Origin: Halichondria panicea | Taxonomy: Eukaryota > Porifera > Demospongiae > Suberitida > Halichondriidae | Direction: 5' to 3' | NCBI RefSeq assembly: GCF_963675165.1 | Contig: NC_087380.1 | Location: 204,001-268,000, forward strand | DNA length: 64,000 bases | In this document: positions 17,182 to 61,300 of the stretch, in pieces | Layout: every line of letters begins with the position of its first letter | How positions within the stretch are numbered: position 1 is the stretch's first letter | Program-made: the position numbers and the translations under genes | Notes under the pieces: generated by a model | What the model saw: the letters and a program-made list of their open reading frames with translations, nothing else | What the model was told of the DNA's origin: nothing | The model's database searches: none

Positions 17182-20100
17182 ATGGCCATGAGTCTTGGTG
17201 GTGCAGTACTGTTGATGCTGATAGCTACTGGAGCAATGGTCTCTGGACAGCAAAGTATGACCGTATATATTAGTATATATTATACATGCAGTATTGTTCA
17301 GTTTGTATGCCATCGCAAAACCAGGACGGTATAATTATTACAGGCAACTCAGATCATATATATATACCACTACGGACATTGTGATATGAATGCGTCGTTT
17401 TACGTGTGTAAAACCTCTAACCACATTAATAATTGCATCATACATGTAAATAAGGGAGAGACAGGGAGTGGTGCACCTACATGACGTTCTACACAGAGGC
17501 CTCGAAAACTATCCTATTTTTTTCTGGGTAACTCGCTCAAAATAAAAAAGTTGTGTTTCCTTGAGATAATTTTTATCGCAATTTATAACACTCATATTTG
17601 TAATACACACCCAGTGAAAGATATGTGCTATTTTAGGGTTTTTTTATTACTAAAGTGTGTTTATTAGTGTAAGCGTGCTTGTTTATTCAAGGGCACTTCT
17701 GTTTCCTGTGATTGCATGCATTGCGCAAACTACACAAAAATGTGTATAATCCAAGTCTGTGGCATTTATGATTATTCAATAAATATTTGTGTGGCGCTTT
17801 AGTCATTTGAATAGACCAGATCTGTTAAAATTTTGCCTCAGTACGTTGGCAATAATAATAATTGTTATTGGTCTAATTATATGCAGTTTGGTTCACCCTG
17901 GGATCAACCACCATCACCACTAACAATACTGAGATCCTCATCACTGACATTGGAGAGGATGCTACTGGTGGTAATCCTCGACTCACTTGCAACACTGACC
18001 TCGCTGCCTGCTGTAGAGATGCTGAGACCGGTGTGGGAGGGCTAGGAGAATGGGCGTATCCTAATGGGAGTTTACTACTGAACAATAGGGACTCAGCGGC
18101 TGCTGGACAGCAGTTCTACAGGCTAAGGAATGACCCTCAACTCATCAGACTGTCTCATAGAGAGAATGCCAACTCCCTCACTCCAACCGGGTCCTACTGT
18201 TGTACTGTACCAACTACTGGAGGAGATAAGACCCTCTGTGCTAACCTGGGTGAGTGAGTGTTTGGGTGGGTAAAGGACGTGTATGTATTGGTGCTGTAGT
18301 TAAGTCCAAACAGTATTTAAAAATTCATGGCATCACTTATTTTTATGGAGGGCCATTTCGGTAAAATAAAGAATGTAACTCTTCTCAAAAGCATTTGAGG
18401 CATCAATTGGAATGCAAGGTAGGTTAATGGGGGGGGGGGGGTCAAATCAGAGATCAAATTGCCACGGCCCAGCCCAACCCTAACCAAGATTTTCTTAAAC
18501 GCGACTCCTGTGCAAGTATCGGTAGTTCACCACTCTTCGCTTCGACAGTATTTTGCCTACAATATTTATTTTTTCCAACAATTTTCATTCTTAAACTATT
18601 ACACACACAGCTTTATTGCTATATTGGTATTTTGTGTTCTCCAGTTGTGTGCCCCACTCTCCCACTGACCAATGGGATGATCTCCTACTCTGACCTAACA
18701 CTGGGTGAGAACACTGTGGCCACTCACACCTGTGAGGCTGGGTCTGCCCTCACCACTGACCTCAGTGCCAGGACCTGTGGAGTGACTAGTAATAGTCTGA
18801 GTGGTGTGGGTGACTGGTCCGGGTCACCTCTGGTGTGTGCAGGTATGGGACCTCCTCACACATACACTACCAACCATTCTCATTATCTCACAGGGGGTGC
18901 CTGTCCAGACCTCACTGCTCTAAATGGAGTGATCAGCTATAGCACTGTATCAGATAATGGCTACAGACGAGTTACTACTGTGGCCACCTACTCCTGTGAC
19001 ACTGGCTTTGATCTAACTGGTGGTGACTCAATGAGGACGTGTACTGCTGGTGCTTGGGATGGCAGTGAACCAACTTGTACAGGTGAGAGTGTTGAATATC
19101 TGAGGCAATCGCTGTTATTATGTTTTTATGAACCTATAATATTTGTTTAAAGCCTTGTGTATATGATTATTGTGCCAGTATAGTGATAGCTACCTCTTGT
19201 ACTCTGTGATGACGGATTTTGCTATTCCATGCACTGTTGAATGACATGCATTTATAACAATCCTACTGATTGCCCATAGGATGTGCAGCTGTTGACTGTG
19301 GAGCCCCTCCCACTATTCCTGATGGCAGTAGGACACTAGCTGGTACAACATTTGGAGAGACAACCACCTACACCTGCACCAGTGGGTTCAGTATCTCTGG
19401 ATCAGCCACCATAGCTTGTCAGGCTAATGGGAGCTGGGAACCTGAGCCAGCCTGTACTATGGATCGTGAGTTATTGTCTGAGTGTGTTAGGCTGGTCCAG
19501 TTACTCTGTTCTGTGCAGCCATTGATTGTGGGACACCTCCCTCTGTCTCTAATGGCTCTCCTGGAGCACCCTCACCTGACACAATGCTCAATGGAGTGGT
19601 GACCTACACCTGTGACACTGGATACCAGATCTCCACTGGAGTCACCACAGCAATGGCTACCTGTATGGCTAGTGGGGCCTGGGGACCTCTACCAACTTGT
19701 TCACGTATGTATCAAATACATCTACTTCTTTACACTTGTACATTACGATGCATGATTAATGGATACAGGTGTCTCATGTGGTGACCCTCCCTCTGGCACC
19801 AATGCAACTCCTGGAGCACCCTCCAGCACAGTGTACCAAGGGACAGTGACCTACGCCTGTGACACTGGATACCAGATCTCCACTGGAGTCACCACAGCAA
19901 TGGCTACCTGTATGGCTAGTGGGGCCTGGGAGACTGTACCAACTTGTTCACGTAAGTATTGTGATGCATATGTTCAGAATACCAGTGTTCACCCACTCAG
20001 CTGTGGTTTGTGGTGTCCCTCCCTCTGTTCTCGTATAGATGCATTCAATTGTTACCATATAGCAGGTAATCTTCGTGGGTGAAAAAATTCATTGAACTTG

Positions 20101-23100
20101 AAACAGCGATGATTTTATTTTGTTTGCTTCTCATTACGTGCATGCACAGCATTGCATGCGTTTTGGTAATGGTTTTCGTGGGTAAAATGTTCGTCGGGAT
20201 CAGTTTTCCCAGAAAAATTACGAATTTTTACCCCACGAAAATTGCCCCACATCACGGTGTATTGGAGCTCTGTATTTATCTTGCATTTCCCATGCAGTTG
20301 TTGACTGTGGAGCCCCTCCCACCATTTCTGATGGCAGTAGGACAATAGCTGGTACAACATTTGGAGAGATGGCCACCTACACCTGCACCACTAGTGGGTT
20401 CAATATCTCTGGATCAGCCACCATAACTTGTCAGGCTAATGGGAGCTGGGAACCTGAGCCAGCCTGTACTATGGATCGTGAGTTATTTTCTGAGTGTGTT
20501 AGGCTGGTCCAGTTACTCTGTTCTGTGCAGCCATTGATTGTGGGACACCTCCCTCTGTCTCTAATGGCTCTCCTGGAGCACCCTCCAACACAATGCTCAA
20601 TGGAGTGGTGGCCTACACCTGTGACACTGGATACCAGATCTCCACTAGAGTCACCACAGCAATGGCTACCTGTATGGCTAATGGGGTCTGGGGACCTCTA
20701 TCAACTTGTTCACGTATGTATCAAATACATCTACTTTCTACTTCTTTAAACTTGTACATTACGATGCATGATTAATGAATGCAGGTGTCTCATGTGGTGA
20801 CCCTCCCTCTGGCACCAATGCAACTCCTGGAGCACCCTCCAGCACAGTGTACCAAGGGACAGTGACCTACGCCTGTGACACTGGATACCAGATCTCCACT
20901 GGAGTCACCACAGCAATGGCTACCTGTATGGCTAATGGGGTCTGGGGACCTCTATCAACTTGTTCACGTATGTATCAAATACATCTACTTTCTACTTCTT
21001 TAAACTTGTACATTACGATGCATGATTAATGGATACAGGTGTCTCATGTGGTGACCCTCCCTCTGGCACCAATGCAACTCCTGGAGCACCCTCCAGCACA
21101 GTGTACCAAGGGATAGTGACCTACGCCTGTGACACTGGATACCAGATCTCCACTGGAGTCACCACAGCAATGGCTACCTGTATGGCTAGTGGGGCCTGGG
21201 GACCTCTATCAACTTGTTCACGTAAGTTATTGTGATGCATATGTATGCCAATCATAATAATGTTCAGCTGTGAACTGTGGCCCACCTCCCACTATTACCA
21301 ATGGCTCTCCTGGACCACCCACTCCTGACACAACTCTTGGAGGAATGGTGACCTACACCTGTAACACTGGTGTGCTGGTGGGAGGGGCCACTGTGACCTG
21401 TGAGGCCAGTGGAGACTGGAGCACTACACCAACCTGCTTAGGTGAGCATGCTACCAGTATACATTGTGCAATGGTTTATGTAATTTTCGGTGAGGTAAAA
21501 AAGATTGTGTGTTAGGTATGATATTGTCCCAGCCCCTATATTGTACTCTGACCTCTGTAGTGATAACCCTAACACTGGCCCCCTCTCCAATGGCTGGTCA
21601 GAGATACACTCTCACATGTGCTGTGACTGGAGGGGACTCTCTGACTCCAACCATCACCTACCAGTTCACTCAAGACAATCCCGGACAGACTGGGGTGGTG
21701 GGGGGAGTGTTGACCACACCCACTCTGACCTTTAACCCCTTGATGCTCTCCAACAGTGGACAGTACAGTTGCCGGGCAACTATCACCTCCCCCCATCTCA
21801 ACACTCCCCAAGTGTTGGGTAGTGGATCACAAGACCTCATGGTTCAAGGTGAGTCTGTGAACTATGTGTGGAAGTGCTCTAGTATTCTCATTCCCCAGTT
21901 ACCACTCCGAGTGTCTCCATTGTGGATCCTGGTAATCTCTTTGTGGCCACCTCCCCTCCTCTCTGGTGTAGTGTGAGTGTGGACTCATCAGTGGTGGATG
22001 TGCCAGTGTCTGCCAGTGTGGAGTGGGATGGCCCCAGGGGAATGGGGTTCTCCTTAGTCAGTGGACCTCTATCAGGAGGATCTACCACTCTCTCTGTTCC
22101 CCTCACCAATGCCATGACAACAGACAGTGGTGACTACACGTGCAGAGCTAGTGTGAGTACAACCTCAACGGCCTACCCTCAAGTAAGCCCCAGTAGTGAG
22201 GGATCTGACAGCAGGAGCATCACTGTCTGTGAGTTACTATCCATTGCTTGTGAGATAGTGTTAATGATATCATTATCCCCCAGATGGTGTCCCCTCTGCC
22301 CCCAGTGTGACTGTGACTGATCGTACCACCACCACCCTCACTTTCTCATGGACACAACCACCAAATGAACTGGTTACTACATACATCCTTGACCTCGACT
22401 ATCGTGGAGACTGCCCTGAGCATATCTCCAACACTCCACAAGAAAGGCTCAATGGAGATGTTACAACATTCACTTTTGGTAGTATATTTCGTCTTGAAGG
22501 GTTCAATGACTACCAGTTGACTATCACTGGGACCAATGGAGCTGGTACCAGTTCACCTGTGTTGGAGACAGCTACTACTTTACCAGCTGCTCCTAATGCT
22601 CCTGTACAGAACTTGAGAGTCAATACCTCTAGATCTAGTCCCATCACCATCCAATGGGATAGAGTTCCTTGTATTAGCAGGAACAGTAAGATCACTGGCT
22701 ATACAGTAACTTATACTCCTCCTCCTACTCTCGATACTGTCTCTGGAACTGACACGAGGGAATTCTCTGTCTCTGTGTTTCCCAGAACACTGTACTCATT
22801 CTTTGTGGCTCCCAACAGTGGCAGTGGAGCTGGACCCAACAGTGAGGTCATCACTCATACAACTGACCCTGCGACTGGTATGTGCTTGTGTTCATGTACA
22901 GTGTGTTATTGTTATTGCAGATGTGAGCTTCCTTGTTAATGGAGAGCTCTTACCTGACAACTCTGTCATCAGACCAGACCAGTTTGGAGAGGACCTGGCA
23001 GCTCTTCATTGCCTCACCCCGTACGAAGATTGCTGTAGAACATCAGACACTGTGGGCCCAGTGGGGGCAGGGCAATGGTTGACCCCTACTGGGGACAATG

Positions 23101-26100
23101 TTGCTTTCTCTAATTCCATGCTCTACATGACACGCAACCCCAGTCGAGTGTCACTCAATAGAGACAGTTCTTTAGCACCAGCTACTGGGATCTACCGCTG
23201 TCAGATTCCAGTGTCAGAGAGCTCTGATCAGACCATCCACATCGGACTCTACCCTGAGGGACAAGGTGAGTAGTAGTCTAACATGTGCCTGTAGTACGTG
23301 TGTGTACTGTAGGTACTCCCACTATACCTGGTGATCTGGTGTTCAATAGATCTACCCTCACTCTGACGTGTGTGTCTAATGGTGGTCCAGCTAGTGAGGT
23401 GGTGTGGACCAGGGATGGAGATACTGTCTCTACTGGATACACTCTCACACAAACTGTGTCTTATATAACCACAACATCTTATGAGAATGTCCTGACTGCT
23501 ACTACCATTGCTGATCTGGTGGGTAACTTCACCTGTACAGTCAGCAACAGCAGAGGCACCAGTGCACAGAGCATACCCATATCTGGTGAGTTGTAGCTAT
23601 TAACTAACCAACTCTTAGACCCCCCCCTGTGCAGGTGTTCGTATCATAGACCCCCCACAGCTAACAGTGGGTCAGTCTGCCACCCTCACTTGTGAGAGTG
23701 ATCTGACTGGTACTATAGAATGGCTGGACTCTGACATGAGTGTACTAGCCACTGGAACTGGATCAGAGCTAGACTACACTATACCTCTGGTCAGTGATGG
23801 CATGCATGGATCCACTCTTATCTGTAGAGCCCCTGGGGGGTCAGAGGTCATCACTCTCACTGTCATAGGTGAGTTGGTGTGTACACGTACAGTGCTTTTT
23901 AATTGATTACTTGATTGTAAATTGTTGAAGCCATAATTATAAATTGTTTTATACAGTGCCTCCTGACATTCTTGATTTCACCATCACCCCTGCTGGTTCC
24001 TCCACTGCTGGCTCTGAGTACTCGTTGCATTGTGAAGTCTCTCTGAGTATCAGTGGACTAGTCAACCCACCCACTGCAGTGTGGACAGCTACTGATAATG
24101 ACTTCAGTGTCATCTCCTCTGGTGATGCCTCCACTCTGACCTTCTCTCCTCTGAGGACCAGTCATGGTAGAGCTGGCTACACTTGTGTTGGTCAGTTAGA
24201 GTCTCCTGCACTTGATCAGGTGATGGAGGATCAGACACAACGTGATGTCATGGTGACAAGTAAGTCAAAGAATATCTCATTCTATTAATCACCATCTCCC
24301 TCCAGTCCCCATCCCTGGAGTATCATTGACCACACCCACTTCCTTGACTGCCGGCACACCCTCTTCCCTTACCTGTACCATCACTGTGGACAATGCTGTG
24401 GATAGAAACGTGGTAGTGGACATTGTGTGGGAGATCTCCACTGACAGTGATCCCATCACCACTGCCACTGGTAGTGTACCAACCTTCACCAACACTCTCC
24501 CCATCCCTGTACTGAGCACTCGCTACACTGGAGTCATCTGTAGGGCTACTGTGAGAAGATCATTTGCTGATTCCTTTGTGTTGTCCAGCTCTCAAGGATC
24601 AGCTTCTGTAGACTTCACAGTGGAGGGTAAGTGTGCACACATGAGTGTATACATGTACTGACCCCCCCCCCACAGCCCCCCTACCCCCTGTGGTGACCAT
24701 CAGTGTGTCTGGTGACTCTGTGGCAGGCTCCTCCCTCTCTCTCCTCTGTACTGCCACGCCCCCTACCCCCCTAGTAACTCCACCCACCATCTCATGGGTG
24801 GGTGTGGTCTCGTCTGATGATGATGTCACTGTTACCAACATCTTGACTGTGGCAGAGTCTAGCACTATGGCAACCTTTGACCCCCTGAGAACCAGTCGTG
24901 GCGGTATGTACGTGTGTGTAGCAGACTACAACATTCCTGGCGCTGATCTCCCTGACCTCTCCAACACTACATCCACCATTGTCAGTGTGCAAAGTAGGTC
25001 TCTGTCTCATTCCAATGTCTCTTATTATGCATTCCTATTTCATAGTCCCGAGACCTGATGCCAGGATCACTTTTGACCCCATGATGGATGGCTACACTGT
25101 TGGCCTATTCCTGACCCTGGGTTGTGAGGTCACTCTATCATCAGCTGTTGATACTATGGTGAACCTTGAACCTACATGGAGAAAGGAGGGTGTCGTACTG
25201 ACCACCAGAGAACAACTCACTGTGGGGCCGTTTAAAAACCTCACTAGAACTAATACTAATGATGACCAGGTGTACACTAGCTTGTTGGAATTCCAGCCAT
25301 TGACAAGAGACTTTATTGGCAATGACACCTTGTATGAGTGTGAGGCCAGTGTAGTGCCTCAGAGTGATACCTTCATCACTGGAACCACCACCAACACATC
25401 CACCACACTCACAGTGGGAGGTGAGGGGGGCTGTAGGGTTAGGGTCTGTACAGTGTATGTGTATTCTGTACATTTATTATTTTTTTTTTTTTCAAGAAGA
25501 AAAATATAGTGTTATAGTATAAAGTTCGAAGTTCTTACCTAGGGGTCTGACCTTCGGCAGCTGCCAGGGTCAGGTTCCCTTCGTAATTGGTTTTGCAAAT
25601 GCAGATCTGGTTCCTCGTATGCACATAATTGCTGATCGAATGATGGCAAAACTTAGCTGACATCTTATCCATCCCATGACAATAGAGTATGGTTTTTCTT
25701 GTTTTCTTGATAACATGTCTGCTAGTCTTTTGTAGAGCGTTGTTCCTTCCTTTCCCGTGCTGCCTGTAGTTGAGAATACGAGAGGTGTAAACACACCATG
25801 TTCTACGTTTTGAACTCTTTGATTGTATTCTCTTTTTTTGGGTGCCTCATGTTGCTTGTGGATGGTGGCGGTGTCTTTGGAGCGATAGCATGGCGCATTT
25901 GGGTGAAATACTCTCACATCCAGGAAAGCTAATGTACGGGTATTGTGTGTACTTACATTGTACATTTTCTTAATTAGTGGTTCACTCTTAATAGTTACTC
26001 TTACATATTGTACAGTGGCTGCCTTTGCTGCCTCCATTAGTCCTGCCTCCACTGTGCTAGCTGGCTCTGAGCACACTCTTATGTGTCAGGGAACTAGAGG

Positions 26101-26755
26101 AGATGACCAGGCTGATGGTACCACACTGGAGGTGGAGTGGTTCAATCGTGATGGTGCCCTCATAACTGGAGAGACTAGTGATGTCATGATAACAGGAGTC
26201 ACTGACATCACTACTAATGCTACCCTCATCAGCTCTCTGATCTTCGCCAGTGTCCAGACATCTCAAGCTGGTCCCTACACGTGTAGAGTCAACCATACTA
26301 TACCTGACAGCACCATCGCTGATCAGAGCATCCTGAGCTCATCAGTGGTCACTGTGCAGAGTAAGCCCCTCTCATTAGCCCTGTGTGTGTGTGTGTGATC
26401 CCCCCTCCAGTTAATACCCCTCAAGTGATGATCAATGCTAGTCGGTCTGCCACACTGTACGAGGGAACTACTGGTCAGGTCCTACGCTGTGTGGTTACCC
26501 CTGACAACGCTGGAGTGAACACAATCACTAGTGTGACACGAGATATAACTGGAGGTGCTAACAGAGACACGACTAGTGACACTGTCAGTGATGGTGTGAT
26601 TAGTGTGGAGGAGGCCATTCAAGTGCTGAGTCTCAGTGACACTGGGACCTACACATGCTCTGCTACTGTGACCTCTGAACCCAACAATATGTACATTATG
26701 TCAGCCACCAATACAGACACTCTGAGCATAACTGTGGAGGGTACGTGTGTGTGTG

Positions 26756-26805
<50 letters not shown>

Positions 26806-29800
26806 TGCGTGCATGGTTCTATCTACTTGACTGTGTTGTAATGTCCCTCCCTGCAGTCCTCCCAGTCCCTGTTGTGGAGATATCACCCAGTAGTCCCCTA
26901 CCAGTGCTGGCTGGGTCCTCCCTCGACCTCACCTGCTCAGTCTCAGTGGAGGACCTTCTCTCTGTGGAGCCACTCATACAGTGGACACTGTCTGACCAGC
27001 CACTATCTGGGGTACTCAATGGCCGTACCAACACACTGACCTTTGACCCCCTCCTCACAACCAACGCCACTCAGTACACATGTACTGCCACTATCAGCAT
27101 ACCTGCAGTGGACATCACTAGTACTGGCAGAAGCTCTATAGCCCTCACAGTGGACAGTAAGCAGTGTCATAGCCTCACTGTCCTTTATCCTACCCCCCAC
27201 AGTCCCCCCTCCCACTGTGAGTGTGTCCTCACCCACCCCCGTCTACCATGGCACTAACCACACCCTCTCCTGTAACGCTGGCTATGACACTAGTGTAGTG
27301 ACGACTGCTGTGACTCTGGACTACTCCTGGACTGGACCCAACCTCATAGCCTCCAGTGATAGTGCTGCTCTCACACTCTCACCAGTGGACCTACCAGCAC
27401 AGAGCAGCGGAGACTACACTTGCACTGTCAGCCTTATCCCAGCAGACTCAACCTTCATCAACCCTGCCACAGACTTTGATACTTACACCCTCACTGTACT
27501 AGGTTAGTGAGTGGGCGTTAGTGAAGACTTCATATGATTCAGTTTCGTACAATACAGTAGGTAGCAGTTGTTAGTGATTTTGTTTATTGTATTATAAGCA
27601 TGTACTAATTTTAGCAAATTTTTGCGAATTTGTAATTAACGCTAAATTAAGTATAGTCCGTGCTAATACATTTTGAATCTCATTAAAAACATTTCTTTTT
27701 TAATGAGAATGTACTTTTGAGAGTATGGCCCTTTTTTCACCAGAGAAAAATCTACTTGTATGTCTATAATAGTGATGCTTTACTTCCTCCCCCCCCCTCT
27801 CCCTCAGCTGCTCCCCCTCCTGAGGTGTTGACTGGTGTGCCTGTGAGGGAGGAGCGTTGTGGACAAGTGTCCTCCATCACCTGTACTGCATCTGTCATTG
27901 ATAACTTTGTAGCCACACCCACCTTCATGTGGAGTGGGTCGGGTGGAGACATTGTGGACTCTGACAACATTCTCAACTTGCCCTCTGAGATGACTGGAGG
28001 AGAGTACACTTGTATGGCTTGTGTGAATGTACCACAAGTCAATATCATCAATCTCTGTACCAACTCAACCATCACCATACAGGACACCAGTGAGTTACTT
28101 GTTAGCCATTGACAGGACTATTCTTAGGGAGGGTGGTCCCTCCTATAGAGCTAGGACTATTGTTAGGGAGGGTGGTCCCTCCTATAGAGCTAGGACTATT
28201 GTTAGGGAGGGTGGTCCCTCCTATAGAGCTAGGACTATTGTTAGGGAGGGTGGTCCCTCATATAGAGCTAGGACTATTGTTAGGGAGGGTGGTCCCTCCT
28301 ATAGAGCTAGTGTTCCAGCTGTTGCATTGATACCTCCTCCTCTCATATACAGCCCCCCAGCCAGTGAGTGATGTGGTGTGTTCCTCCCTCTCTCCCTCCA
28401 CTCTGAGTGTGAGCTGGTCCCCTCCAACTGACCCTGTCCTCAGTTATCAAGTTGAGGTCAAACAGTACAGTAAAGTGGCTGTAGGGAACATAGTCAGTCT
28501 CTCTACTCCATTTGACAGTGAGGACATTATCACCACGACCACTGTGGAGGGTCTAGGTGAGTACTAGAGGGATTGCTGTTGTGTGTTATAATTTATAAGC
28601 TGTATTTTGAATCGGCTCTGTAACTAGAGTTCTGGTGATTCAATTTCAACAATTTTACAATTTTTCTGAAAGTTTAGAAGGAGCTCTTTCAGGTGGTATG
28701 CTCAAATCCCAAATTTGAAACAGGCCATAATTCCCTATTTTCAGGTCGTAGTATTTATCGAAAAAAGGCTTCATAATTATCATCTGAAGGCTTATATACT
28801 TACAAAATTAACGTTATTGGACCAACGTAAAGTTAAGTTATGGTACATATTATATATTGTGTGTGTACTGTGTTTACATGTTTCGAGCTACGTACAGTAT
28901 CGTCATTCTACCATGCTGACTGTACTCCCCCCCCCCCCCATAGCTGCCTCTACCCGGTACCTGGTCAGTGTTGAGGCAGTGAGTGGTGTCGGCTGTAGTG
29001 ATGTCACTGAGATAGACTGCTACACTGAGCAAACACAGCCCCCAGTGGTTACCGGGGTAACTGTAGACAGACTCAACGGGACTGCCATGAATGTCAGCTG
29101 GACTCAACTCAACAAAGCTCAGTCCAATGGCTTCATTCAGAGTTACATAGTGACATACTCTGTTGTCACGACAACACCCAATCGTAAGAGACAAGGCTCT
29201 CAACAAGTGACAGTATCCAGTGACAAGAGTGGTACTATCATTGGAGGACTGGACCCGGGGTCAGAGTACAGTGTCGATGTGAGCGCTAGTGGAGCAGGGG
29301 GAACTTCACAATGTGAGTTGTCCTGTTATTATTATTATAATTAATTATCTTTCTTCGTTCCTATAGCCTCTCCTCCGATAGTGTCCCCCACTATAACCTC
29401 AGTGTTGTTCCAGCTCAGACTTACCAACATCAACAACTGTCCTGACTGGGTCGTGAGTGCAATAATTATAACATTGTGTCGCTTAGAACCAGTCTCCATA
29501 ATTACAGGAACAACCAGACAGGCTAACTGCTGTCACTGAAGCACTGGTGTCTGAGATCCAGGGTCTTTGTCAGTGTTCCTTTGCTCTTAGTGATATCCAA
29601 GAGCCATCCTTCCAATGCTTCCCAGAGTCAAACCAAGCTGTAACCTTCCGTGCCATCACTACCTCCAGCTTCATTGGTGGCATATCACGCTGGATTGCTG
29701 ACGATGGTTTACTGAGAGTACAGAGGGTTTTTATACGAGTGGACAAGACTTGTCAGGTGGAGATATCAAACTTTGAGGACACCGAGTGTAACACTATACC

Positions 29801-49378: not shown

Positions 49379-49613
49379 TACAATATTCTCTGTGAGAGCA
49401 GTCACTTCACAGCATTTGCTGTTCTAGTGGATGTCACTGGAGCACTGAATGTGAGCCTCGTGCAGCGAATACTATATATAGTTATAGTTTGTTCTTTTGT
49501 ATATAGGACACAACTCCAGAGATCAGGTTTGCTCTATCGGTGGTGACTTACGTTGGCTGTTCCATCTCCATCTTTTTTTTTCTGTTGTCTATCCTCTATT
49601 TCTTGACATTGAG
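49379..49613 (+). pseudogene. Orphan GPS/TM1 fragment of an adhesion GPCR
   Basis: It starts inside the GPS exon ([20 protein letters not shown], exon end 49450). An intron and a complete TM1 exon (49507-49613, [13 protein letters not shown]) follow, then intron homology ends near 49660. No upstream GAIN exons and no TM2 follow. It is the left-over edge of a further partial GPCR copy. Confidence 0.88.
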
Positions 49614-49990: not shown

Positions 49991-52900
49991 ATGAGTCTAG
50001 ATCTTGGTATAGCACTACTGGTGATACTGATAGCTACTGGAGCAATGGCCTCTGGACAACAGCAAAGTATGAGCACTATAGTCTCTAATTACATTCCACA
50101 GTTATAGTATTGTGCTCTTTAGTGCATTTGCAAATCGTAAACGCCCGAATTAATTAATAAAGCATCACCGAGGCTAAAAGATAGTTACTTATAATAGCAA
50201 GACTATGATTGTACGAATGCAATCCAAATACTGCTAATCCCGTATACATGTAGCGGGTAATTTCATCAATGCAAATGTTTGTATGAACTATCGAGTTTAT
50301 TGTACAACTCAGAATGGTGACGTAGAACCTATATAATTATTATCCCTGTTTTAATTTTCGAATTATGCTCTACAATAACGAAACATTTCCATAGGAAGGC
50401 CGCATATTTTATATATAGGGCCACTACAATTGGCCTAAGGCTATAGCTAGCATAACCATACTTAATTCAGAGATGTGGTAGTGCCACAAGATATTGTACT
50501 ATAGCTGCAACAACACAGCTAGCTAGCTAGAGATACCTATACTGACTGTCTACCATTGAAGAGAGACTACCCATGACCTCCATGCTGTGTGGACTAGTGT
50601 GTGTGGTCCTGCTCTCTGGGCTCACTGCACTGGTAGGGGGACAACAGCCAAGTGAGTCAGTAATAAACTATGTACATGCAATATTTATTACATGGTTGAT
50701 TAGATGTGTGTGGCTTGTAATGTGATGTGTTGTATGTGTTCACCTTATGAGTTAATAAGTTCATGACAGCTACGTACCAATATTTGAGAATGAGCCAAAT
50801 CCTTTTGCGATCGAACTATTGCGTTCTGGCAAGGATCGTGTGTATTTACCAGTACTAGGTATGTATCGTGTGTATTTACCAAATGTGTGTTCACTATTTC
50901 AGAAGAGTGCTCTGATTTACCATCACTAACGAATGGAGGCATTACCTACACTGATGGATCTACTGACAGCAGACCTATTAATACCATTGCTACCTACACT
51001 TGTAACAATGGCTACACTCTCACTGGAGGGGGTGTCAGAGCTTGTCAGAATGATAGGACCTGGAGTGGATCAGCTCAAACATGTCAAGGTGAGTTCCGCT
51101 ATATCTTAGTTGCTTCACTATTTTTGATACAGTAAACAACACACGTACATTGTCCTTTATCCACCCAAACAGTCCATCACTCAGAGGTAGTAGTTTGTAG
51201 GTTTTTAAATTAATTCAGTTTCAGACCTTACTTACTCCATGAAGTTCAGAACAGCTAGCTAGTACCGTATTCACCCGAATTACCGGGACACAAAAAAATA
51301 ATTACGTCTTGCCAGTGTCCCTTGGAATAGAGCAAGAAAAGTTACGTTAAAGTCGAAGCGTCCCTTGTATTAGGGTGTCCCGTAGTAATTAGAACGAATA
51401 TTTCCCCATTTAAGGTACGTACGCGGCCAGACTCTGTGTACTGTTTGTTTGTTGAGTGTATCGTCTCCCATACAGCTAACTGCCCTGACTTACCCACACT
51501 GACCAATGGGATGATCATGTACAGTGCTGGATCCCCTGACAACAGACCTCTCGGCTCTAGTGCTGTGCACTCCTGCAACACTGGCTACACTCTCACTGGA
51601 GGTATCACCAGGGTCTGCGTTACTGGAGCGAGATGGAGTGAGACTGCTCCAACTTGTCAAGGTGAGCTCTGTAACCACAGCAACAACTCTTGTACAATTT
51701 GCATTTCAAAAAACTGGATATTTACCGCGTGCGTGCACAGCGCGCAGCAGGGATAAAGTGATTGGTGTATGTGGACACAAAGAGCTGTTTGAGCAAACTA
51801 GACACTTTCATGGACTGCTTTAACGAGACAGTAGTTGACAAATAATAGGCTATAGTTGAAACTTGTAGGCGATATTCGAAAGTGACAAAAACACTGTTTT
51901 ATAATTGATCTAATCGTTAGCTTTATAGATTCACGAATTTCCCATAATGATGAACGTTTCTTTACCTACCCCCACCTGTCCTGATCTCTCTGTTCCAACC
52001 AATAATTTGTTGAATGTGCATTCACATTTCAGGACCTTGTTCTGATTTACCACCACTAATGAATGGAGGCATTACCTACACTGATGGACTTACTGACAGC
52101 AGACCTGTTAATACCATTGCTACCTACACTTGTGACAATGGCTACACTCTCACTGGAGGGAGTTTCAGAGCTTGTCAGAATGGTGGGACCTGGGATGGAA
52201 CAGCTCCAACCTGTCAAGGTGAGTTCTGCTACATCTCAACAGTTGCTTCATAAAATAATTACCACAGCCACCACCTGTCCTGACTTGATTACTCCAACCA
52301 ATGGAATGATCAGCTACAATATGGGGACTACTGGTCTGAGGCCAGTGAACACTGTGGCCACTTTAAGCTGTAACACTGGCTTCAATCGAGCCACCACTTG
52401 TCAGGCGGATAGAATGTGGAGTGGCAGTGAAATAACGTGTGAAAGTACGTATCAACTCTTCTTCATTGTGTCACTATGGTATTTTTCTTGTCTCTCTTAT
52501 GCCATTGCAAATCGTAAACGCCTGAATATAAAGCACCACTAAAAGATAGTTACATATAATAGCAAGACCATGATTGTATGGAAACAAATGATAATAATCA
52601 GTACAACATATACCGTATTATACGTGTATAGCGGGTAATTTCGTTGGTCCAAATGTTTGTATGAACTACAGAGTTTAATATTTCTTACTCTAAATATTCA
52701 TACAACTCAGAATGCATGGTGACGTAGAACCTATTGTGCAATATATTATGGAATGATACTCCATAATACAAAACATTTCCTCCATATGAAAATAACCTGC
52801 TATACGGTATTCGTTTAAATGTGTACATGACTTGGTATGCAGTCTACCTGACTCTTGGATATGATCGACGTGTCATCACTACTAACAATACGGAGATCTT

Positions 52901-55900
52901 TATCACTGACATTGGAGAGGATGGTGGTTTACCAACTCTCACTTGTCACACTGACTCCACTACCTGCTGTAGAAGTAATGCTGACAACAATGGTAATGGA
53001 TCACTAGGACAGTGGACGTATCCTAATGGGAGTGTGATACTGCGCAATGGAGCCTCAATGACTGCTGGAGAGCAGTTCTACGTTAACAGGAATGGTTTTG
53101 CTCAGATCATTGGACTAAACCGTAGAGAGGCTAACAACTCCCTCACTCCAACCGGGTCCTACTGTTGTACTGTACCAACTAGTGCAGGAAGAGATGACCT
53201 TCTGTGCTAACCTGGGTGAGTGGATTGTATGGTGGGTATATACAGGACAAAGTTCACTGTTTGTATCTGCCAGTGATCCTAGTACTAAGTGTATAAGTTT
53301 TCAGTTTCAGACATTTTGAAGTTCAATTCATGCATGGTTAATTATAATTAGGGTTACACATCACCACATTACTTGCTCATGCATGTAGCTACAGTACAGT
53401 GTCACAGCTAGCACACAAATATATAATTCACACAGCACTATTGTATCGAGATGTTGCTGTTTTGTGTTCTCCAGTTTTGTGCCCCTCCCTCACACTAATG
53501 GATGGGATGGTCTCCTACTCTGACCCTACACTGGGTGAGAACACTGTGGTCACTCACACCTGTGAGGCTGGGTCTGCCCTCACCACTGACATCACTACCA
53601 GGACCTGTGGAGTGACTAGTGGTGGTGTGGGTAACTGGTCCGGGTCACCTCTGGTGTGTGCAGGTATGGCACCTCCTAACACATACAGTATCAACCATTC
53701 TCATTATATCTCACAGGGAGTGCCTGTCCAGACCTCACTGATCTACAAAATAGAGTGATCAGCTACAGCACTGTATCAGCTAATAGCTACAGACAAGTTA
53801 CTACTGTGGCCACCTACTCTTGTGACACTGGCTTTGATCTAACTAGTGGTACCTCAATGAGGACGTGTAGTGGTGGTGTTTGGGACGGAACTGCACCAAC
53901 TTGTACAGGTATTTAAGACTGCTATACAGTGCCTTCAGCTTTGAGAGTAAATTTAACCACAGAGTGAATTTATCTCAAGATTGGAACATTTCTAAGAAAT
54001 TGTGCTGATACCATTGTGTAGGTGAATAAATAAGCTACAACCTTATTTGAAAATATTTCCCCAAAAGTTGTAGTGGGAAATCATTTTAGGTAAAAATGGG
54101 GGTGATCGTAAAATATAAGTGTAACATGAAATATCTCCGGAACTAAAGTATTTCTGGTCAACTTTTTTGTATCAAAAGATAGAAAATTTAATGTGCAAAA
54201 ACAATTAGACCTTAGCCGACAAATTTGCTTGAGTTTCATCGCTAAGCGAAAAGGCACCTAAAATATCCCATAATTGAGTATTAATCAGTACGTGTACTTA
54301 TGTAAGCTATACGTAACCATGCATGCATATGTTACTAAACTATTTAGGAATGTTGTGCCAAAGTTCCATACCTTAGCCGAAAACAATTGGTCTTTTCCAT
54401 CGCTAAGCGATTGTCCACTATAGAAAAATGTTGGTGTTTTATAAACCACCACATACCCACCACCTTTGGTTTCCATGGAAATATTTTTGGATATGTTTTA
54501 GATAATTTGTTCACCAACACAATGGTATCATCATATTTTCTTAGAAATGTTCCAATCTCAAAATATTTACATTTATCTACTAACACATACCAAATTGCGT
54601 TTATTTACTCTATAGACTAAAGGCACTGTATTAACTGTGGAGTCCAACACAAACTGATTTGCTTTACCCACTATATACCTGCTATACCAGGAATTTTAAA
54701 ATGGGGAGGGGCAGTTTGAAGAAAATGTTTACTACAAAAAAGGTCAACACTTAAGCCCAGCCAGTGTACTTTTCTGATCATGGATTGATTGATGACAGTA
54801 TGACATACATAGTAGCATGAGATAGCAGAAATCGATGGAATCATCTTGCTCTTCAGCTTCAAAAGTCTACAACTAGAGATTGTCTGCATGCTGCAATAAT
54901 TGATTGCTGCACTAAGCCACACCCACTTTGTGAGCTAGTTTTATTCGAGCTGGTCAGAAAGGGGGGGGCACGTGCCCTTGTGCCCTGCACTGGATCCGCC
55001 ACTGATAAATGCGTACCCGGCACTGTGGCCAACAGAAATGTCACAGAGAACGCACAAAGTTGCTAAAATTGACACATGTAGTAAAGCGTAATTTTTCTCC
55101 CTCGCCCAAACGTGTATGAGGGGGATCTTAAGGTGACGAGAAATCCCCTGTTCGAAGGAGCCTGTACTGTTCGCCTTGGTTTGGCAGGCTGTACACGAGG
55201 CTAGAGATCACGTGACAGCACCAAATCCTTTTGAACACACCTAGCAAAAATCACGTGTTTTAATACTGGTGCACTCGGATGGACTCTCAGTTATAATGAA
55301 CCTGAGCCAGCCTGTACTATGGGTCGTGTGTTGAGTTCTTTCCTATACAATAGACCTAGACAGGCTAGTCTAAAGGTTTCTAATCAAAAACGATTGCAGC
55401 TCAGAGCTGAGGCAAAGTTAGACTACTACAAACTAGCAGAGACTATCAAACAAGTTGAAGTTTACTTTCAAACAAATTCTTAGAGATAATAGCGTAACAA
55501 CAACTGACATATTTGGAGCAAAAACAGAACTGACATTAATTAATCAAAGAGGTCCAAAAACATGCTAGGAGCAGAGCCCCTAGGAGGAGTTTCGGTACAA
55601 AGATGAGGCCAAAACCACAATTCAAAATGTGAACAAAGACTGTTATGATGTAATACAACATAATACGAGTGGGTGAGAGTGGATAGTGTAAATTGTGATT
55701 AATTAACATCAGTAAACATAAACATTGTGAGTTATTGTCTGAGTGTGTTAGGCTGGTCCAGTTACTCTGTTCTGTGCAGCCATTGATTGTGGGACACCTC
55801 CCCCTGTCTCTAATGGCTCTCCTGGGGCACCCTCACCTGACACAATGCTCAATGGAGTGGTGACCTACACCTGTGTCAGTGGGTATGAGGTCTCCCCTGG

Positions 55901-58900
55901 AGTCACCACAGCAATGGCTACCTGTATGGCTAGTGGGGCCTGGGGACCTCTACCAACTTGTGCAGGTATGTATCAAATACATCTACTTTCTATTTCTTTA
56001 TACTTACTATACATTACGTTGTATGATTAATCTATACAGGTGTCTCATGTGGTGACCCTCTCCCTGGCAATAATGCATCTCCTGGAACACCTGACCCTGA
56101 CACATTGTACCAAGGATTAGTCCTCTACACCTGTAATACTGGATATTGGATCTCTCGTGGAGCTTTCTCAAGATTTGCTAGCTGTAGGGCTGACAGGACC
56201 TGGGGGCCTCTACCAACTTGTCAACGTATGTGAAGTTGCTATTCTGATTAATAAATTCAGTGAATAGTATACAGTAGTGGATTGTGGCTCCCCACCCTCC
56301 ATTGGCAATGGCTCTCCTGGAACACCCACCAGAACAACCTACCAAGGGACAGTGACCTACACCTGTGTCAGTGGATATGAGATATCCAAAGGAGCAATGG
56401 CTACCTGTATGGCTAGTGGGACCTGGGGACCTCTACCAACTTGTTCACGTATGTTATTGTGATGCGTATAATTATGTTCAGAATACCAGTGTTCACCAAC
56501 TCAGCAGTGCTGTGGATTGTGGTGTCCCTCCTTCTGTCCCTAATGCATATATAGAGCTCTGTGTATTTATAGCAATACCTATAAACTCGCTCGATTTCTC
56601 TACAAACCGAGGTCTAGCCACCGTATTACTAATGAGACAAATCAACAGAAAATGTTATCCTTTGCGATCTAACTATTGCGTTCTGGCAAAAATCGTTAGT
56701 AATAATTTGTCCCACCCACGCAGTTATTGACTGTGGAGCCCCTCCCACTATTTCTGATGGCAGTACGACACTAGCTGGTACAACATTTGGAGAGATGGCC
56801 ACCTACACCTGCACTAGTGGGTTCAGTATCTCTGGATCAGCCACCATAACTTGTCAGGCTAATGGGGGCTGGGAACCTGAGCCAGCCTGTACTATGGATC
56901 GTGAGTTATTGTCTGAGAGTGTTAGGCTGATCCAGTTACTCTGTTCTCTGCAGCCATTGATTGTGGGACACCTCTCTCTGTCTCTAATGGCTCTCCTGGC
57001 ACACCCTCCAACACAATGCTCAATGGAGTGGTGACCTACACCTGTGTCACTGGGTATGAGGTCTCCAATGGAGTCACCACAGCAATGGCTACCTGTATGG
57101 CTAGTGGGATGTGGGAGACTGTACCAACTTGTTCACGTATGTTATTGTAATGTGTATGTTCAGAATACCAATCACACTAATATTTTGCTCACTCAGCTGT
57201 GAATTGTGGCTCCCCTCCCTCTGGTACCAATGCATCTCCTGGAACACCCACCAGCACAACTCTTGGAGGGACAGTGACCTACACCTGTGACCCTGGGTAC
57301 TGGATCTCTCGAGGAGACATCACAACAACGGCTACCTGTATGGCTAGTGGAGTGTGGGAGACTCTACCAACTTGTTCACGTATGTTATATTGTAATGTGT
57401 ATGTTCAGAATACCAACACAGTATTATCTTTCTCTATACACTGCCACTCATACAAACATGCATGGTTTATACACACTCATTCATGGTCATAGCAACTAGC
57501 TGACGTTAATCGGATCGAGTATAGAATCGTTTTTCTTCTCTAGGCATAGTTTGTGAAGCTGAGCGTGATTCTGTATGGTGGCTTTTCGTCCCTGCCACTT
57601 TGGCTGGCACTTCATATACCCAGCAATGCCCACAAAATGGAACTGGAACAACTTTAGGTATCACTATTATTCCATGTGACTGTGTGTGGATGTGCATGCA
57701 TATATCATTATAGGTACTGCGACTCGTTTCTGTACACTGGGTGGTGTCTGGGAAGCAGTGATCACAGATAACTGCACTAGGGAAGTGATAATCTCACTTA
57801 GTAACATGGTGAGACTTTGCAGTTACTTTATATAAATATAATTATGCACTGTCACCTATCTACTGTTCAATACAATCTTTCATGCACCAGCTATCGTTTT
57901 CTATTCCTCCCCTTCAGGCAAATGAACTGTTTTCTAGAAATGCATCTCAGAACAATGCATCTCAGAACGAAGTTGACAACCTTCTTGTTTCTCTTACGGA
58001 GGCTACTAGTGTAAATGCAACAGGAGACTCCACCATATTCCCCCAAGATCTCAGCACTACTAATACGATCGTCAAGTCAAGTGTGAACTACCTCGTTCAA
58101 AACGTTGAGATTGCTAGCCCCGTGTCTTCTCTCAATTTTAGTGAAGTAAGACTAATTATGCAAATATACCCTTTTGTAAATAGTTGGGTCATCTTGCAGG
58201 AAGTTATGAACATTTTCAACAATGTTCTGGATGAGAGGAATATCGGAGGATGGGAAAGATTGCAGGAGGTATATCATTGAATGGCACAGATAAACGAAAA
58301 TTTAAGTATAAACTTCAGAATTCTGCTGCTGAAAGTCAGCAATTGCTGTTGAGTGCAGAGTTATATGGTCAGTATGTGTCATTGGCACTAAGGAGTGAAG
58401 CTGTGGATACAGGCAACATGACGGAGATCACTCTTGTGAGACAGAACATCGGTATGTGTATACTTCACCATTAGCTTATTATGTTGTACACGGGTGATGC
58501 ATGATAGTATTGCATTTACCGTCCATCCAGTTCTATCTGCAATGGAAGTTGACCCCACTAATTTGGATGACATTATCTTTCCTAAAGTTGTCAAAGTCAG
58601 TGAAGAAACAGGCTCAGCCCAGAGTACCATATCAGCTGCTCTTCTGGCGGAGAGAGGCTCTCAAGGTATTTTATAATTACACACTTTCAAATTGGTAACC
58701 ATTGATTTTATCTTCAGAGGGGAATGTTACAGCAGTCAACATTCTATTTTCCAACTTGGAGGATTTTCTTCCAAACACCAATCTTGAAATGTAGTACTAA
58801 GTCATGTTCTGCTCAGTCTCATTGTATGCTTACACAGGAACACCACCAGACCAGTAACACAGGTTATTTCTAGTCAAGTCTTCTCCAATGTAAAGTTAAA

Positions 58901-61300
58901 TAACTCTCAGACACGGGCAACCTTCAGATTCACCACCCAAAAGGTTGTCATAACATAATATCATCAGTTGGACTTACGAGTGACACTTATTCATGCGTGC
59001 AGTTTTCTGAAGATGAAGTTGTTGAAAATGCAAGATGTGTATTTTGGAGTGTTTCTAGGTGAGCTGTCCTTCTAATGTGTTTATTTCAAATTACCACACT
59101 TATAATTATTGTGTCAGTGATGCTGCCAACAGCACGTGGTCCAAGGAAGGTGTGACTACAGTCAGTGTGGATGAAGACAAGCAAATGAGAGTATATAATA
59201 TTGTCTGTGAGAGCAGTCACTTCACAGCATTTGCTGTTCTAGTGGATGTCACTGGAGCACTGAATGTGAGCCTTGTGCAGTGAATACTATAATTATACAG
59301 TTATTAATGTTTGGTCTTTTGTAGGACACAACTCCAGAGATCAGGTTTGCTCTATCGGTGGTGACTTATGCTGGTTGTTCCATCTCCATCTTTTTTCTAT
59401 TTTTTTCTATCTTCTATTTCTTGTCACTGAGGTAAAGGACTATATAACATGTATAAAACCTTACTATGCTGCTGATGTTTAGAAAAGAGCTGTTGACCAA
59501 GGTTCATTACTTCATCCATCTCAACCTGTCTATTTCTTTGCTCCTTGGTTACCTGGTGTTCCTGACAGGAGTGGAGACTGCTGTGGCCAACAAGGTGTAA
59601 CTTGAGTTGTGTACATACATTGTATGGTATATAGCTTGTACAGTTTTATATACCTTAAAAGTTTGATCATGCATGCCGAAGTTGAAGTTTTTGTCTCGAA
59701 TGAGTGAGCCTTATGTGTAATTATGTATCTTAATACAATCTCCATTTGCCAAATGCTATATAATTATGGCATTGTACTTGTATGACATCACGATCTTGCC
59801 TGATAGCGAAGTATCTGCTTATTTGGTAAAGATTGTTCACTCGCAAAACTAACCAGTATACACAGCAGTATATGATCCGCGACTAATTGGCTTTTTACTC
59901 CCAACATGTACTTTGTTTATTGCAGTCCATCATATTCCCCCTATAATTAGCTAGTGAGTGCATCATAATGTTTTCTCTTGACATTCATTGGTGCTCGCAT
60001 ATTAGCAACAGTAGATTCTCGTTGCCAGTATTTCCTTCAGAGAGCTGCATGGATTAGCAAGAGTGTATACTGTATTGAACCTTTATGACTTGCAGGTAGC
60101 GTGTGTGTTTGTGGCTGCTCTCCTTCACTACTTGTTCACTACTGTGTTCTTTTGGATGCTGTGTGAGGGAATCATGCTCTATCTCATGTTGGTGGTTGTC
60201 TTCAACCGAATATCCAAGAAATGGTGGATATTCTTTATTATTGGATGGGGTAAATTTGTATATTTTAAGAGCTGATAAATTACCTAAGAGGATGTAGGGT
60301 TCATCCTAATTATGGGTATATTTCTTGCAGTTGTTCCAGTGATACCAGTGGCTATATCTGCTGGAATTATTCATGACCAGTATGGCACAGAAGAGTAGTG
60401 AGTTTTAATAGACAGCGTTTCCACCAATAAAATTTAAAATTCTGTGTAAAACATTTACAACTGAAATAAGTCGGTTCTATTATATACATTCAGTTGTTGG
60501 ATTGCTGTTGGTGGCGGTGATAAAGGAGCCATATGGGCATTTGTTGTACCGATGCTACTAGTTGTTCTGGTGAGATCATTTATAGCTTGCATGCATTTCA
60601 ATATCAACCACTTGGATTCATATAGCAGCAGATTTTTATGACTGAAATCCTACTGTCTACATGTATACAGGCGAATATATTCTTCCTCTTGGCTGCTTTG
60701 CGCAGTGTCTATAATCTGAAAAAATCAACCATGCAACAAACTGGGAAGAAGGAATCTTTACAGTTATTCTCGTGAGTGTATCTCATACATCATTCAGTAA
60801 CACGTTGATCCCAATGCTGGTATATGCATGCAGACAACTCTTCAAGGCCTCCGTAATTCTCCTTCCATTGCTCGGGCTGACTTGGGTGTTTGGTCTACTC
60901 TCAGTCAACAGCAGCACCATTGTGTTTGCATGGTTGTTCTCTATCTTTAACTCACTGCAAGGCTTGTTCGTGTTCATCTTCCATGTGCTCAGGAGTGAAA
61001 AGGTACGAGTTTCATTTGATTTGAGCATTTTTATGTCTCGTCTAATTATTAGGTCACAAACTTCCTAAAGCAGTGCAGAAAGAGTGTTGCATCAACTTCT
61101 ACCTCAGGAAAATACAATACGGTATATACCATGAATAATAATGATATCAATGCATTAGGACCGGTTTCTATTGTAGGTTATAGTGCCATTCTGTGAAATA
61201 CTTTATTTTTATGCAGAGCAATCCGACGAGTGTTTTCCAGCTCCGAAAAGTCAGCATGCAAGATGAAGTCATTAAAGATGATGAGATTGCATCTGCATAG
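49991..61300 (+). CDS. Gene D: adhesion GPCR with 12 sushi domains
   Basis: Exons: signal 49991-50066 or 50573-50651; sushi 50903-51088, 51476-51661, 52033-52218, 52268-52444; Ig 52843-53215; sushi 53475-53663, 53717-53908, 55780-55965, 56040-56225, 56275-56448, 56724-56900, 56954-57136, 57197-57379; HormR 57544-57657, 57714-57808; GAIN/GPS 57918-58145, 58200-58268, 58319-58451, 58531-58665, 58718-58790, 58874-58943, 59003-59058, 59118-59265; 7TM 59325-59431, 59483-59594, 60096-60249, 60331-60397, 60494-60569, 60671-60771, 60834-61002; tail 61053-61121, 61217-61300 (TAG). About 1570 residues. The Ig exon is one base out of frame near 53185-53195, giving an early stop unless that exon is skipped or the base is an error. 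The GAIN-7TM part is intact, and it is the most diverged of the three copies. It is convergent with CCDC93, 378 bp away. Confidence 0.82.
50067..50902 (+). other. Second signal-peptide exon and flanks in gene D
   Basis: Exon 50573-50651 encodes [20 protein letters not shown] ending GGQQP and, like the first signal exon, ends in phase 1. It leads to sushi exon 50903. Sequence at 50120-50345 (after signal exon 1) is repeated at 52500-52740 (before the Ig exon 52843). So a block of signal exon 2 plus four sushi exons lies between two copies of an ancestral intron 1. Alternative first exons are likely. Confidence 0.7.
51265..51403. mobile_element. Short MITE in a gene D intron
   Basis: The left ATTCACCCGAATTACCGGGA and the right end (inverted, ATATTCGTTCTAATTACTAC then GGGACACC) form diverged terminal inverted repeats of about 25 bp around 140 bp. 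Non-coding. Confidence 0.65.
52843..53215 (+). other. Gene D N-terminal-type Ig exon, frame-disrupted
   Basis: Reads well from [10 protein letters not shown] through [13 protein letters not shown] and [15 protein letters not shown]. It then departs from its paralogues: the expected EMTFCANLG ending is one base out of register after GCAGGAAGAG (53184-53193), and a TAA follows. Length is 373 bp, whereas a phase 1-1 exon must be a multiple of three. Confidence 0.85.
53927..54628. mobile_element. Long-TIR MITE with CAGTGCC ends (Tc1/mariner-like)
   Basis: The element begins CAGTGCCTTCAG and ends AGGCACTG, flanked on both sides by TA. Inverted homology extends over at least 130 bp, including AGATTGGAACATTTCTAAGA near 53980 and its reverse complement near 54540-54560. 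ATCGCTAAGCG motifs recur inside. TA target sites and CAGT ends fit Tc1/mariner-type MITEs. Confidence 0.85.
54690..55004. mobile_element. Transposon remnant ending CTGGATCCGCCACTG
   Basis: The end GGGGGGGGCACGTGCCC...TGGATCCGCCACTG resembles the terminal repeat (CAGTGGCGGATCC) of widespread metazoan DNA transposons. The opposite end is missing or diverged, so the left boundary is uncertain. Confidence 0.55.
55298..55325 (+). pseudogene. Sushi exon remnant split by insertion
   Basis: The bases for EPEPACTM, the end of the exon type seen at 56724-56900, survive here. The rest of that exon is missing upstream. Its intron (starting GTGAGTTATTGTC) resumes only at 55727, after about 400 bp of foreign sequence. 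Confidence 0.8.
55328..55726. mobile_element. Insertion at the donor site of the sushi remnant
   Basis: About 400 bp lying exactly between an exon end and its own intron start, defined by comparison with 1762, 19466, 44098 and 56901. No terminal repeats or coding sequence recognised; calling it mobile is inferred from the clean junctions. Confidence 0.5.
56511..56550 (+). pseudogene. Truncated sushi exon relic in gene D
   Basis: Start of a CCP domain ([12 protein letters not shown]) that runs into unrelated AT-rich sequence. It is the counterpart of the relic at 19999-20035 in gene B. The TTGCGATCTAACTATTGCGT segment at 56660-56680 also occurs near 50805 in the same gene. Confidence 0.6.
57544..59265 (+). 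other. Gene D hormone-receptor motif, GAIN and GPS
   Basis: Same exon plan as genes A and C, but the first HormR exon is one codon shorter ([19 protein letters not shown]). The GPS reads NSTWSKEG and [14 protein letters not shown], with the cleavage triad His-Phe-Thr kept. The GAIN intron after 58268 is only 50 bp and lacks the MITE found in A and C. Confidence 0.88.
59325..61300 (+). other. Gene D seven-transmembrane module and tail
   Basis: All seven helices present, with adhesion-class motifs ([62 protein letters not shown]). The intron between TM2 and TM3 is longer (59595-60095) than in A and C. The tail ends [16 protein letters not shown], different from LHRMI in A and C. Confidence 0.92.

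Follow-up and report, generated by a model that had tools for sequence, protein, structure and literature searches.

The window analyzed here, a stretch of 64,000 nucleotides from the sponge Halichondria panicea (C4:204001-268000, in a genome of 131.5 Mb in 39 contigs), harbors four genes for predicted membrane receptors, designated A, B, C and D in forward-strand order, whose features are collected in Table 1. Gene models were generated with a small exon-chaining gene finder trained on the window's own domain cores and splice sites and were then checked by hand, and the genome was searched one exon at a time for the spread of the ectodomain exons and membrane ends; stretches cut from the same genome for comparison carry L-numbers (L001 and so forth). 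A signal exon, an exon for a paired-cysteine, putatively V-like immunoglobulin (Ig) domain (pcIg) and sushi exons recur together and are referred to below as the kit.

As the original prediction held, genes B, C and D have in common the signal exon, the pcIg exon and phase 1-1 sushi exons, all of which were located in each of the three. Their signal exons, like that of gene A (C4:194961-195027, upstream of the window), end in ATGAM.SGQQ, and the pcIg copies of C and D are 64-73% identical to the first copy of B, the second copy of B being divergent (33% identity). Introns are in phase 1 at all 35 positions from the signal exon to HRM2 of A and at the first 29 of B. One sushi exon is confirmed by Pfam (PF00084, E 5.9e-11), the others being recognized by pattern and gene model. 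The pcIg motif (a first C, then CC, W and GxYxC) has 11 invariant columns in 21 sequences; its C...W...YxC pattern, which we take to fit a V domain, suggests by motif only that pcIg is a V-like Ig. Two pcIg exons (a C copy and the second B copy) returned no Pfam match, and a pcIg profile gave 14 matches to PDB chains, all weak (best E 0.021), nine of them named Ig-type. The AlphaFold model built from five window sequences was unusable (predicted local distance difference test score of 42.6).

Gene A was modeled over 52 exons with GT-AG borders, encoding 3,173 amino acids without a stop codon; the model ends at a donor, and the last part of the tail would lie beyond it. The encoded order is signal peptide, pcIg, sushis, a second pcIg, a long sushi array, HRM, GAIN, GPS and a seven-transmembrane (7TM) region. 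Its earlier placement in the cluster as a gene ending in GAIN-GPS-7TM stands, with the correction that its kit lies outside the window, in L001. Pfam assigns 7tm_2 (E 1.9e-53, 181.7 bits), GAIN (8.4e-16; 58.5 bits over 26.5), GPS (4.2e-7; 30.8 over 22.5) and HRM (9.3e-6). Compared with the usual GPS pattern of four cysteines, the GPS of A lacks two (GV for GC, CESS for CxC), and it keeps SHFT, a candidate SHF/T cleavage site. A 7TM module identical in kind occurs on C1, C5 and C10 (L013-L016), where three sampled stretches carry no modeled pcIg or sushi ectodomain; its presence there on unrelated ectodomains represents a second, wider case of module swapping.

Genes C and D also end in GAIN-GPS-7TM, as predicted, preceded by HRM, and their 7TM exons can be aligned to those of A. 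Gene C loses its frame to a 22-nt deletion in a GAIN exon (at approximately 46137) and again within one sushi exon, of which the A copy is intact; in D, the reading frame is interrupted close to the 3' end of the pcIg exon. The other end predicted for the window, the Ig/FN3/transmembrane (TM) arrangement with a tyrosine-motif tail in gene B, is present, but its TM segment and tail are out of frame as assembled. Over 2,746 residues B reads without interruption, and its frame is then lost at the TM exon, which is shorter by 8 nt than that of four tandem neighbors and by 11 nt than that of two; all six tandem neighbors run in one frame from the juxtamembrane domain through the TM segment, and among six distant copies the TM segment was found by pattern in four. 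Pfam confirms FN3 in two stretches of B (E 1e-17), and the juxtamembrane domain, for which Pfam gave no match, has 78 matches in the genome.

The possibility that B represents two genes was rejected, as phases and open frame continue through 30 exons into the 31st and the long-tail paralogue adjoining A (L003/L004) has the same layout with fewer Ig exons, running from pcIg through sushis, FN3 and the juxtamembrane domain to an in-frame TM segment. Against the one-gene view of B, this paralogue has no modeled exon at 188.1-191.0 kb, no signal exon was recognized for it, and one base separates the cut stretches L003 and L004. A receptor tyrosine kinase was likewise rejected, the tail exon of B ending after 155 amino acids without a kinase domain and no PF07714 match lying near B among the matches listed (129 of 1,749 candidates scored). 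The B tail marks approximately 33 genes, of which seven (B included) lie at C4:121-235 kb and 25 at 1.88-2.19 Mb. This long tail is under purifying selection, the ratio of nonsynonymous to synonymous substitution rates (dN/dS) being 0.24 among the seven neighbors, B included, 0.34 between the arrays and 0.39 within five distant copies. In the tail comparison, for which the selecting pattern caught 12 of 13 sequences (L032 was missed), YEEV is present in 12/12, a count that is not independent because the pattern requires YEEV, and one of the 12 has lost the first YxxI/M. An intron of B contains a short tandem repeat that is open in more than one frame (28106-28330), and repeats of 164 bp, sharing 60-98% identity with a reference copy, stand in tandem between A and B (13526-15789).

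Table 1. Features of genes A to D; positions are those of the window unless prefixed with C4.
Gene	Feature	Position	Strand	Basis or remark
A	5' part (signal peptide, pcIg, sushis, second pcIg)	C4:194961-204013		L001 plus first 13 bases of the window
A	3' part	1..5954	+	52-exon model, Pfam; sushi exons to 2000; HRM 2123-2384; GAIN 2522-3925; GPS 3985-4243 (HF/T site); 7TM 4296-5826; tail 5877-5954 (stops at donor)
B	Signal-peptide exon	17182..17254	+	
B	pcIg exon	17887..18249	+	
B	Sushi (CCP) exons	18645..21441	+	Phase 1-1
B	Ig exons, two FN3 and second pcIg-like exon	21561..28089	+	FN3 22284-22877; pcIg-like exon 22921-23265
B	FN3 exons and juxtamembrane domain	28353..29808	+	
B	TM segment	29809..29936	+	Out of frame
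B	Cytoplasmic tail	30049..30517	+	YEMI, YEEV, YEMV, YENR
C	Signal-peptide exon	31441..31507	+	
C	pcIg 1	31893..32267	+	
C	Sushi exons, first set	32425..34856	+	Exon 33635-33757 frame-broken
C	pcIg 2	35062..35439	+	
C	Sushi exons, second set	35965..44336	+	
C	HRM-GAIN-GPS-7TM	44459..48120	+	
	Orphan GPS-TM1 fragment between C and D	49428..49613	+	
D	Signal-peptide exon	49991..50066	+	Approximate bounds
D	Sushi exons	50903..52444	+	Best matches in short-tail and receptor tyrosine phosphatase genes, 78-94% DNA identity
D	pcIg	52843..53183	+	
D	Sushi exons	53475..57379	+	Five compared best match C, B or long-tail paralogue L003 (82-96%)
D	HRM-GAIN-GPS-7TM	57544..61002	+	Exons aligned to A

The two different signaling ends of the original prediction are too few. 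At least four kinds of membrane end are predicted on C4, namely the HRM-GAIN-GPS-7TM, the long tyrosine-motif tail, a short tyrosine-motif tail and a tandem-domain receptor tyrosine phosphatase (RPTP). Genes of the short-tail type, of which the tail marks approximately 37 in the genome, run from pcIg through sushis and a second pcIg-like Ig to a TM segment and a tail with YETV, YEEI and YSTV; three units were modeled from pcIg to tail (L002, L017 and L010) and two in pieces (L018 and L020). The RPTP units (L025, L040 and L041/L042) combine pcIg, sushi and a second Ig or Igs with a TM segment and a protein tyrosine phosphatase (PTP) domain whose loop reads HCSAGVGRTG in the first PTP domain of L040, L025 and L042, with Pfam PF00102 on the loop pieces of L040 and L042. 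The models of L040 and L041/L042 include a TM segment, recognized by eye, and a second PTP domain with a degenerate loop, and the L040 gene extends from signal peptide to stop within approximately 7 kb. An I-set Ig (E 5.3e-8) follows the predicted TM segment of L040 at 3539-3959 (C4:367.5-368.0 kb), an odd place for such a domain, and the L025 layout is alike.

The genome search for pcIg exons, in which the best 150 of 295 candidates were scored, yielded at least 150 matches, at least 131 of them on C4. For the tally of ends, 78 exons were kept, these being the C4 rows with E <=1.1e-21 minus one fragment row; the rows left out were weaker (second-Ig type or fragments) or lay on C1, C5 and C14. 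Each exon was assigned by order and distance to the next same-strand end within 16 kb, using positions copied by hand from the matches listed, one per gene for each end. By this measure, 25 exons lead to a long tail, 21 to a short tail, 16 to an RPTP and five to a 7TM (three genes: A, C and D), and 11 have no recognized end. The listed PF00102 matches occupy C4:335-483 kb, 2.21-2.33 Mb and further regions in which an end had been missing for the pcIg genes. The median distance from pcIg to end differs by type (10.2 kb for long tails, 2.7 for short tails, 6.0 for RPTPs and 11.3 for 7TMs). Of the 69 pcIg exons with an end of any kind within 16 kb, 67 have the nearest one on their own strand, and because, in addition, exon order and sequence are conserved, a chance origin of the shared layout is unlikely.

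With respect to the exons without an end, two sampled genes (C4:3.146 and 3.347 Mb) lead into a domain without a Pfam match and a third (4.097 Mb) breaks off after three exons; no gene model was obtained for C4:2463-2468.5 kb, so the pcIg genes at 2.45 Mb have no assigned end. A conserved domain, NIQPGYFTCYKS..., follows the pcIg/sushi genes of L043 (3305-3603) and L045 (3322-3614, minus strand; no Pfam match for the L045 copy), and this domain possibly represents a fifth end or a secreted form. A receptor tyrosine kinase was also considered as a fifth end and rejected. Tyrosine kinase genes form an array on the chromosome that carries the receptor arrays (C4:2.52-2.76 Mb), but neither pcIg nor sushi was modeled in the single upstream stretch sampled (L047).

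The exchange of ectodomains among tandem genes that had been proposed for the window was borne out, and it extends across the ends. How these genes are built, how they are linked and that their ectodomain exons mix across ends can be read directly from the DNA. Gene D is a mosaic. When nine of its 12 modeled sushi exons and its pcIg were compared with 21 stretches, the best matches of the first four sushis compared lay in genes of the short-tail or RPTP type (78-94%), those of the following two in C and B, and those of the final three in the long-tail paralogue (up to 96%), to which other genes came close. Two sushi exons of gene B together with their intron, 428 bp in all, are 93.9% identical to A and C, while the B Ig exons at 26009-27523 are 82-86% identical to a gene at C4:3.03 Mb whose end is HRM-GAIN-7TM. 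End types are not strictly separated on the pcIg tree. On 64 rows (63 of the 78 tallied C4 exons and one from C1; two rows with a stop, read as X), the four end labels change 19 times (3 at the least; 32.5 on average after shuffling), in a tree whose support is rough (few columns, 33 of 61 inner branches open). RPTP labels, with 14 changes, are no more clustered than shuffled ones, which average 14.3 and are as low in 260/500 shuffles, and the pcIg exons of L063, a long-tail gene, and L088, an RPTP gene, are almost identical.

We consider it probable that these genes constitute a large tandem receptor superfamily, residing mostly on one chromosome, in which phase-1 ectodomain exons are exchanged among at least four membrane ends, and whose most likely role is the recognition of self/non-self or of microbes, in the manner of paired receptors. 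Paired receptors, in which shared ectodomains convey opposite signals, are a hallmark of animal self/non-self systems. Under this proposal, the pcIg/sushi kit would bind surface ligands, and binding would be followed by one of four readouts. Phosphorylation of the YxxI/V tails (YEEI, YEEV, YETV and YEMI) would bring in SH2 proteins, the RPTP end would oppose the tail signal on the same ligand, erasing what the tails write, and the 7TM end would sense binding or pull via a tethered agonist and G proteins. SH2-type kinase signaling by the tails, as originally envisaged, is suggested by the tyrosine motifs, YEEI being a classic Src-family SH2 ligand, and SH2 domains are encoded by the genome with 71 exon matches. 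By order of matches, one locus reads SH2-SH2-kinase (C9:5.255-5.259 Mb, Syk-like) and another SH2-SH2-PTP (C3:8.404-8.406 Mb, SHP-like); both are candidate readers of the tails.

Several observations weigh against the proposed superfamily or its role. The 7TM end is a minority, with three genes (A, C and D) having pcIg. Two further 7TM genes on C4, at 1.56 and 1.65 Mb, have sushis and no clear pcIg, which speaks against a fixed kit, and for the 7TM gene at 3.03 Mb the stretch read yielded Ig exons and a single sushi. The signal exon of L040 is unlike those of the window except for its GQQ end. Ends are tied to pcIg exons mostly by proximity outside the continuous models, which are limited to A to D, L003/L004, three short-tail units and three RPTP units, and in at least one case, the pcIg at C4:1112344, a short tail was assigned although another TM exon of that type lies closer. 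The short tail appears weakly constrained, with a mean dN/dS of 0.73 (45 pairs from 10 sequences). Among the tails compared by eye, no canonical immunoreceptor tyrosine-based activation or inhibitory motif (ITAM or ITIM) was found. An ITAM reads YxxL/I-x6-12-YxxL/I and an ITIM S/I/V/LxYxxI/V/L; the long tail has YEMI-x6-YEEV, which ends in V, and the short tail YETV-x3-YEEI, and in the tails compared the residue at -2 is unlike that of an ITIM. Finally, the labels on the pcIg tree are clustered, with overall values as low in 0/200 shuffles and, for single labels, in 0/500 (long tail), 1/500 (short tail) and 2/500 (7TM); exchange between ends was, therefore, episodic.

A further point on the same side is that the assembled frames of B, C and D are disrupted; the three may be pseudogenes. 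Carried further, it becomes an alternative that we regard as somewhat unlikely, namely that the three are decaying copies, the window is mainly a pseudogene-rich patch, and only A and the neighboring arrays matter. The indels in the TM exon of B, in the GAIN and sushi exons of C and in the pcIg of D, as well as the orphan GPS-TM1 fragment, are what decay would leave, but gene A is open through its 7TM, the TM segment is in frame in the long-tail neighbors, and dN/dS across the GAIN1, GPS2 and 7TM exons of A, C and D is 0.18-0.27. Frame-neutral skipping of phase 1-1 exons would rescue D and the sushi break of C, though neither the TM exon of B nor the GAIN exon of C.

It is also unlikely that ordinary exon shuffling and tandem duplication in a family of matrix or cell adhesion proteins account for the locus, with ends that are functionally unrelated and share no recognition system. 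Sushi and Ig exons of phase 1-1 are readily shuffled, elsewhere the 7TM module is joined to quite different ectodomains, the tree labels are partly clustered, and proteins with sushi, Ig and FN3 domains have been reported in sponges (PMC8242945, PMC6208332); a kit of pcIg and sushi with four end types, lying mostly at C4:0.1-2.6 Mb and with recent copies across ends, is not what such shuffling would lead one to expect. That the pattern arises from joining exons across neighboring genes whose true transcripts are short and separate is highly improbable, for although the models derive from DNA alone, the gene finder was trained on this window and some ends were assigned by distance alone, the 52-exon chain of A keeps consistent phases without a stop, the distances from pcIg to end differ by end type, and the compact L040 RPTP gene extends from signal peptide to stop.

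Clustered receptors with shared ectodomains and different signaling ends are a known kind; what appears to be new here is one family spanning GPCR (G protein-coupled receptor), tyrosine-tail and RPTP ends. Vertebrate paired receptors (KIR, LILR and similar) are clustered and have similar ectodomains with opposing signaling ends; unlike them, the genes described here have four chemically different predicted outputs rather than an ITIM set against an ITAM adaptor. Classical RPTPs of the LAR/CD45 type have a single TM segment, a PTP domain with the HCSAGxGR loop, a degenerate second PTP domain and Ig domains outside, all of which recur in the RPTP end, while the pcIg/sushi ectodomain held in common with GPCRs and tyrosine-tail receptors and the I-set Ig predicted after the TM segment set it apart. 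Sponge aggregation factors have a secreted proteoglycan core with Calx-beta/Wreath domains, whereas the present genes encode membrane receptors by architecture.

The closest architecture found appears to be that of the fester and FcoR families of Botryllus schlosseri. These are clustered, related genes of the fuhc allorecognition locus with signal peptide, Ig and sushi outside, and fester is described with three TM segments and FcoR with one and a tail that can hold Y-x-x-I/L/V (PMC12065747). Judged against that description, the architectural likeness lies in clustered genes, Ig and sushi ectodomains and differing membrane ends; the genes here differ in having long sushi arrays, a pcIg without a Pfam match, and ends that include an adhesion-GPCR 7TM and an RPTP. 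The short-tail units may come near to the FcoR order as there described, with pcIg, sushis, second Ig, TM segment and YETV/YEEI all seen, although signal exons were not identified, the numbers of parts differ, and pcIg is Ig by motif only. Candidate allorecognition genes of Hydractinia, as covered in the same source, have ITAM/ITIM tails (PMC12065747). Among sponges, the adhesion GPCRs of Amphimedon are reported with HRM, GPS and 7tm_2 and with varied ectodomains that include Ig and FN3 (PMC4302439), and a figure legend on several receptor families of Halichondria names HormR, GAIN and Sushi among the domains, with no link between sushi and GPCRs in the accessible text (PMC8242945). HRM, GPS and 7tm_2 occur in the genes here too, whereas the accessible descriptions of sponge adhesion GPCRs (PMC4302439, PMC8242945) mention neither a pcIg nor an ectodomain held in common with receptors other than GPCRs, nor do they place tyrosine-tail or RPTP genes in linkage. 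Nor did the open-access literature, to the extent that its text was available, yield an account of one ectodomain family common to adhesion GPCRs, tyrosine-tail receptors and RPTPs.

Other observations from the same searches are recorded here. A tandem repeat at 62884-63264, in the right-hand part of the window, stays open in several frames of both strands, and the minus strand around it carries pieces of a seemingly unrelated coiled-coil gene. In the genome, the SRCR family has at least 213 matches (150 of 1,364 candidates scored), and PF00112, searched for silicatein, has 77, three loci of which (L022-L024) were read as CGSCW-containing and cathepsin-like. A compact genome, numerous SRCR exons and adhesion GPCRs with HRM are in keeping with a sponge.

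We put forward, as a tentative possibility, that the H. panicea genes form a chromosome-scale combinatorial recognition system in an early-branching animal, in which one pool of binding modules is exchanged among four outputs, and which perhaps provides the genetic basis of sponge self/non-self recognition. A common sensor outside could send opposite messages into the cell: if this proposal is true, one ligand could write tyrosine signals, erase them and trigger a G protein, on the same or on different cells, an output swapping that goes beyond that of ITIM and ITAM. It would also provide a concrete candidate recognition locus in an early-branching animal, and adhesion GPCRs whose ligands could be sought via their non-GPCR siblings.

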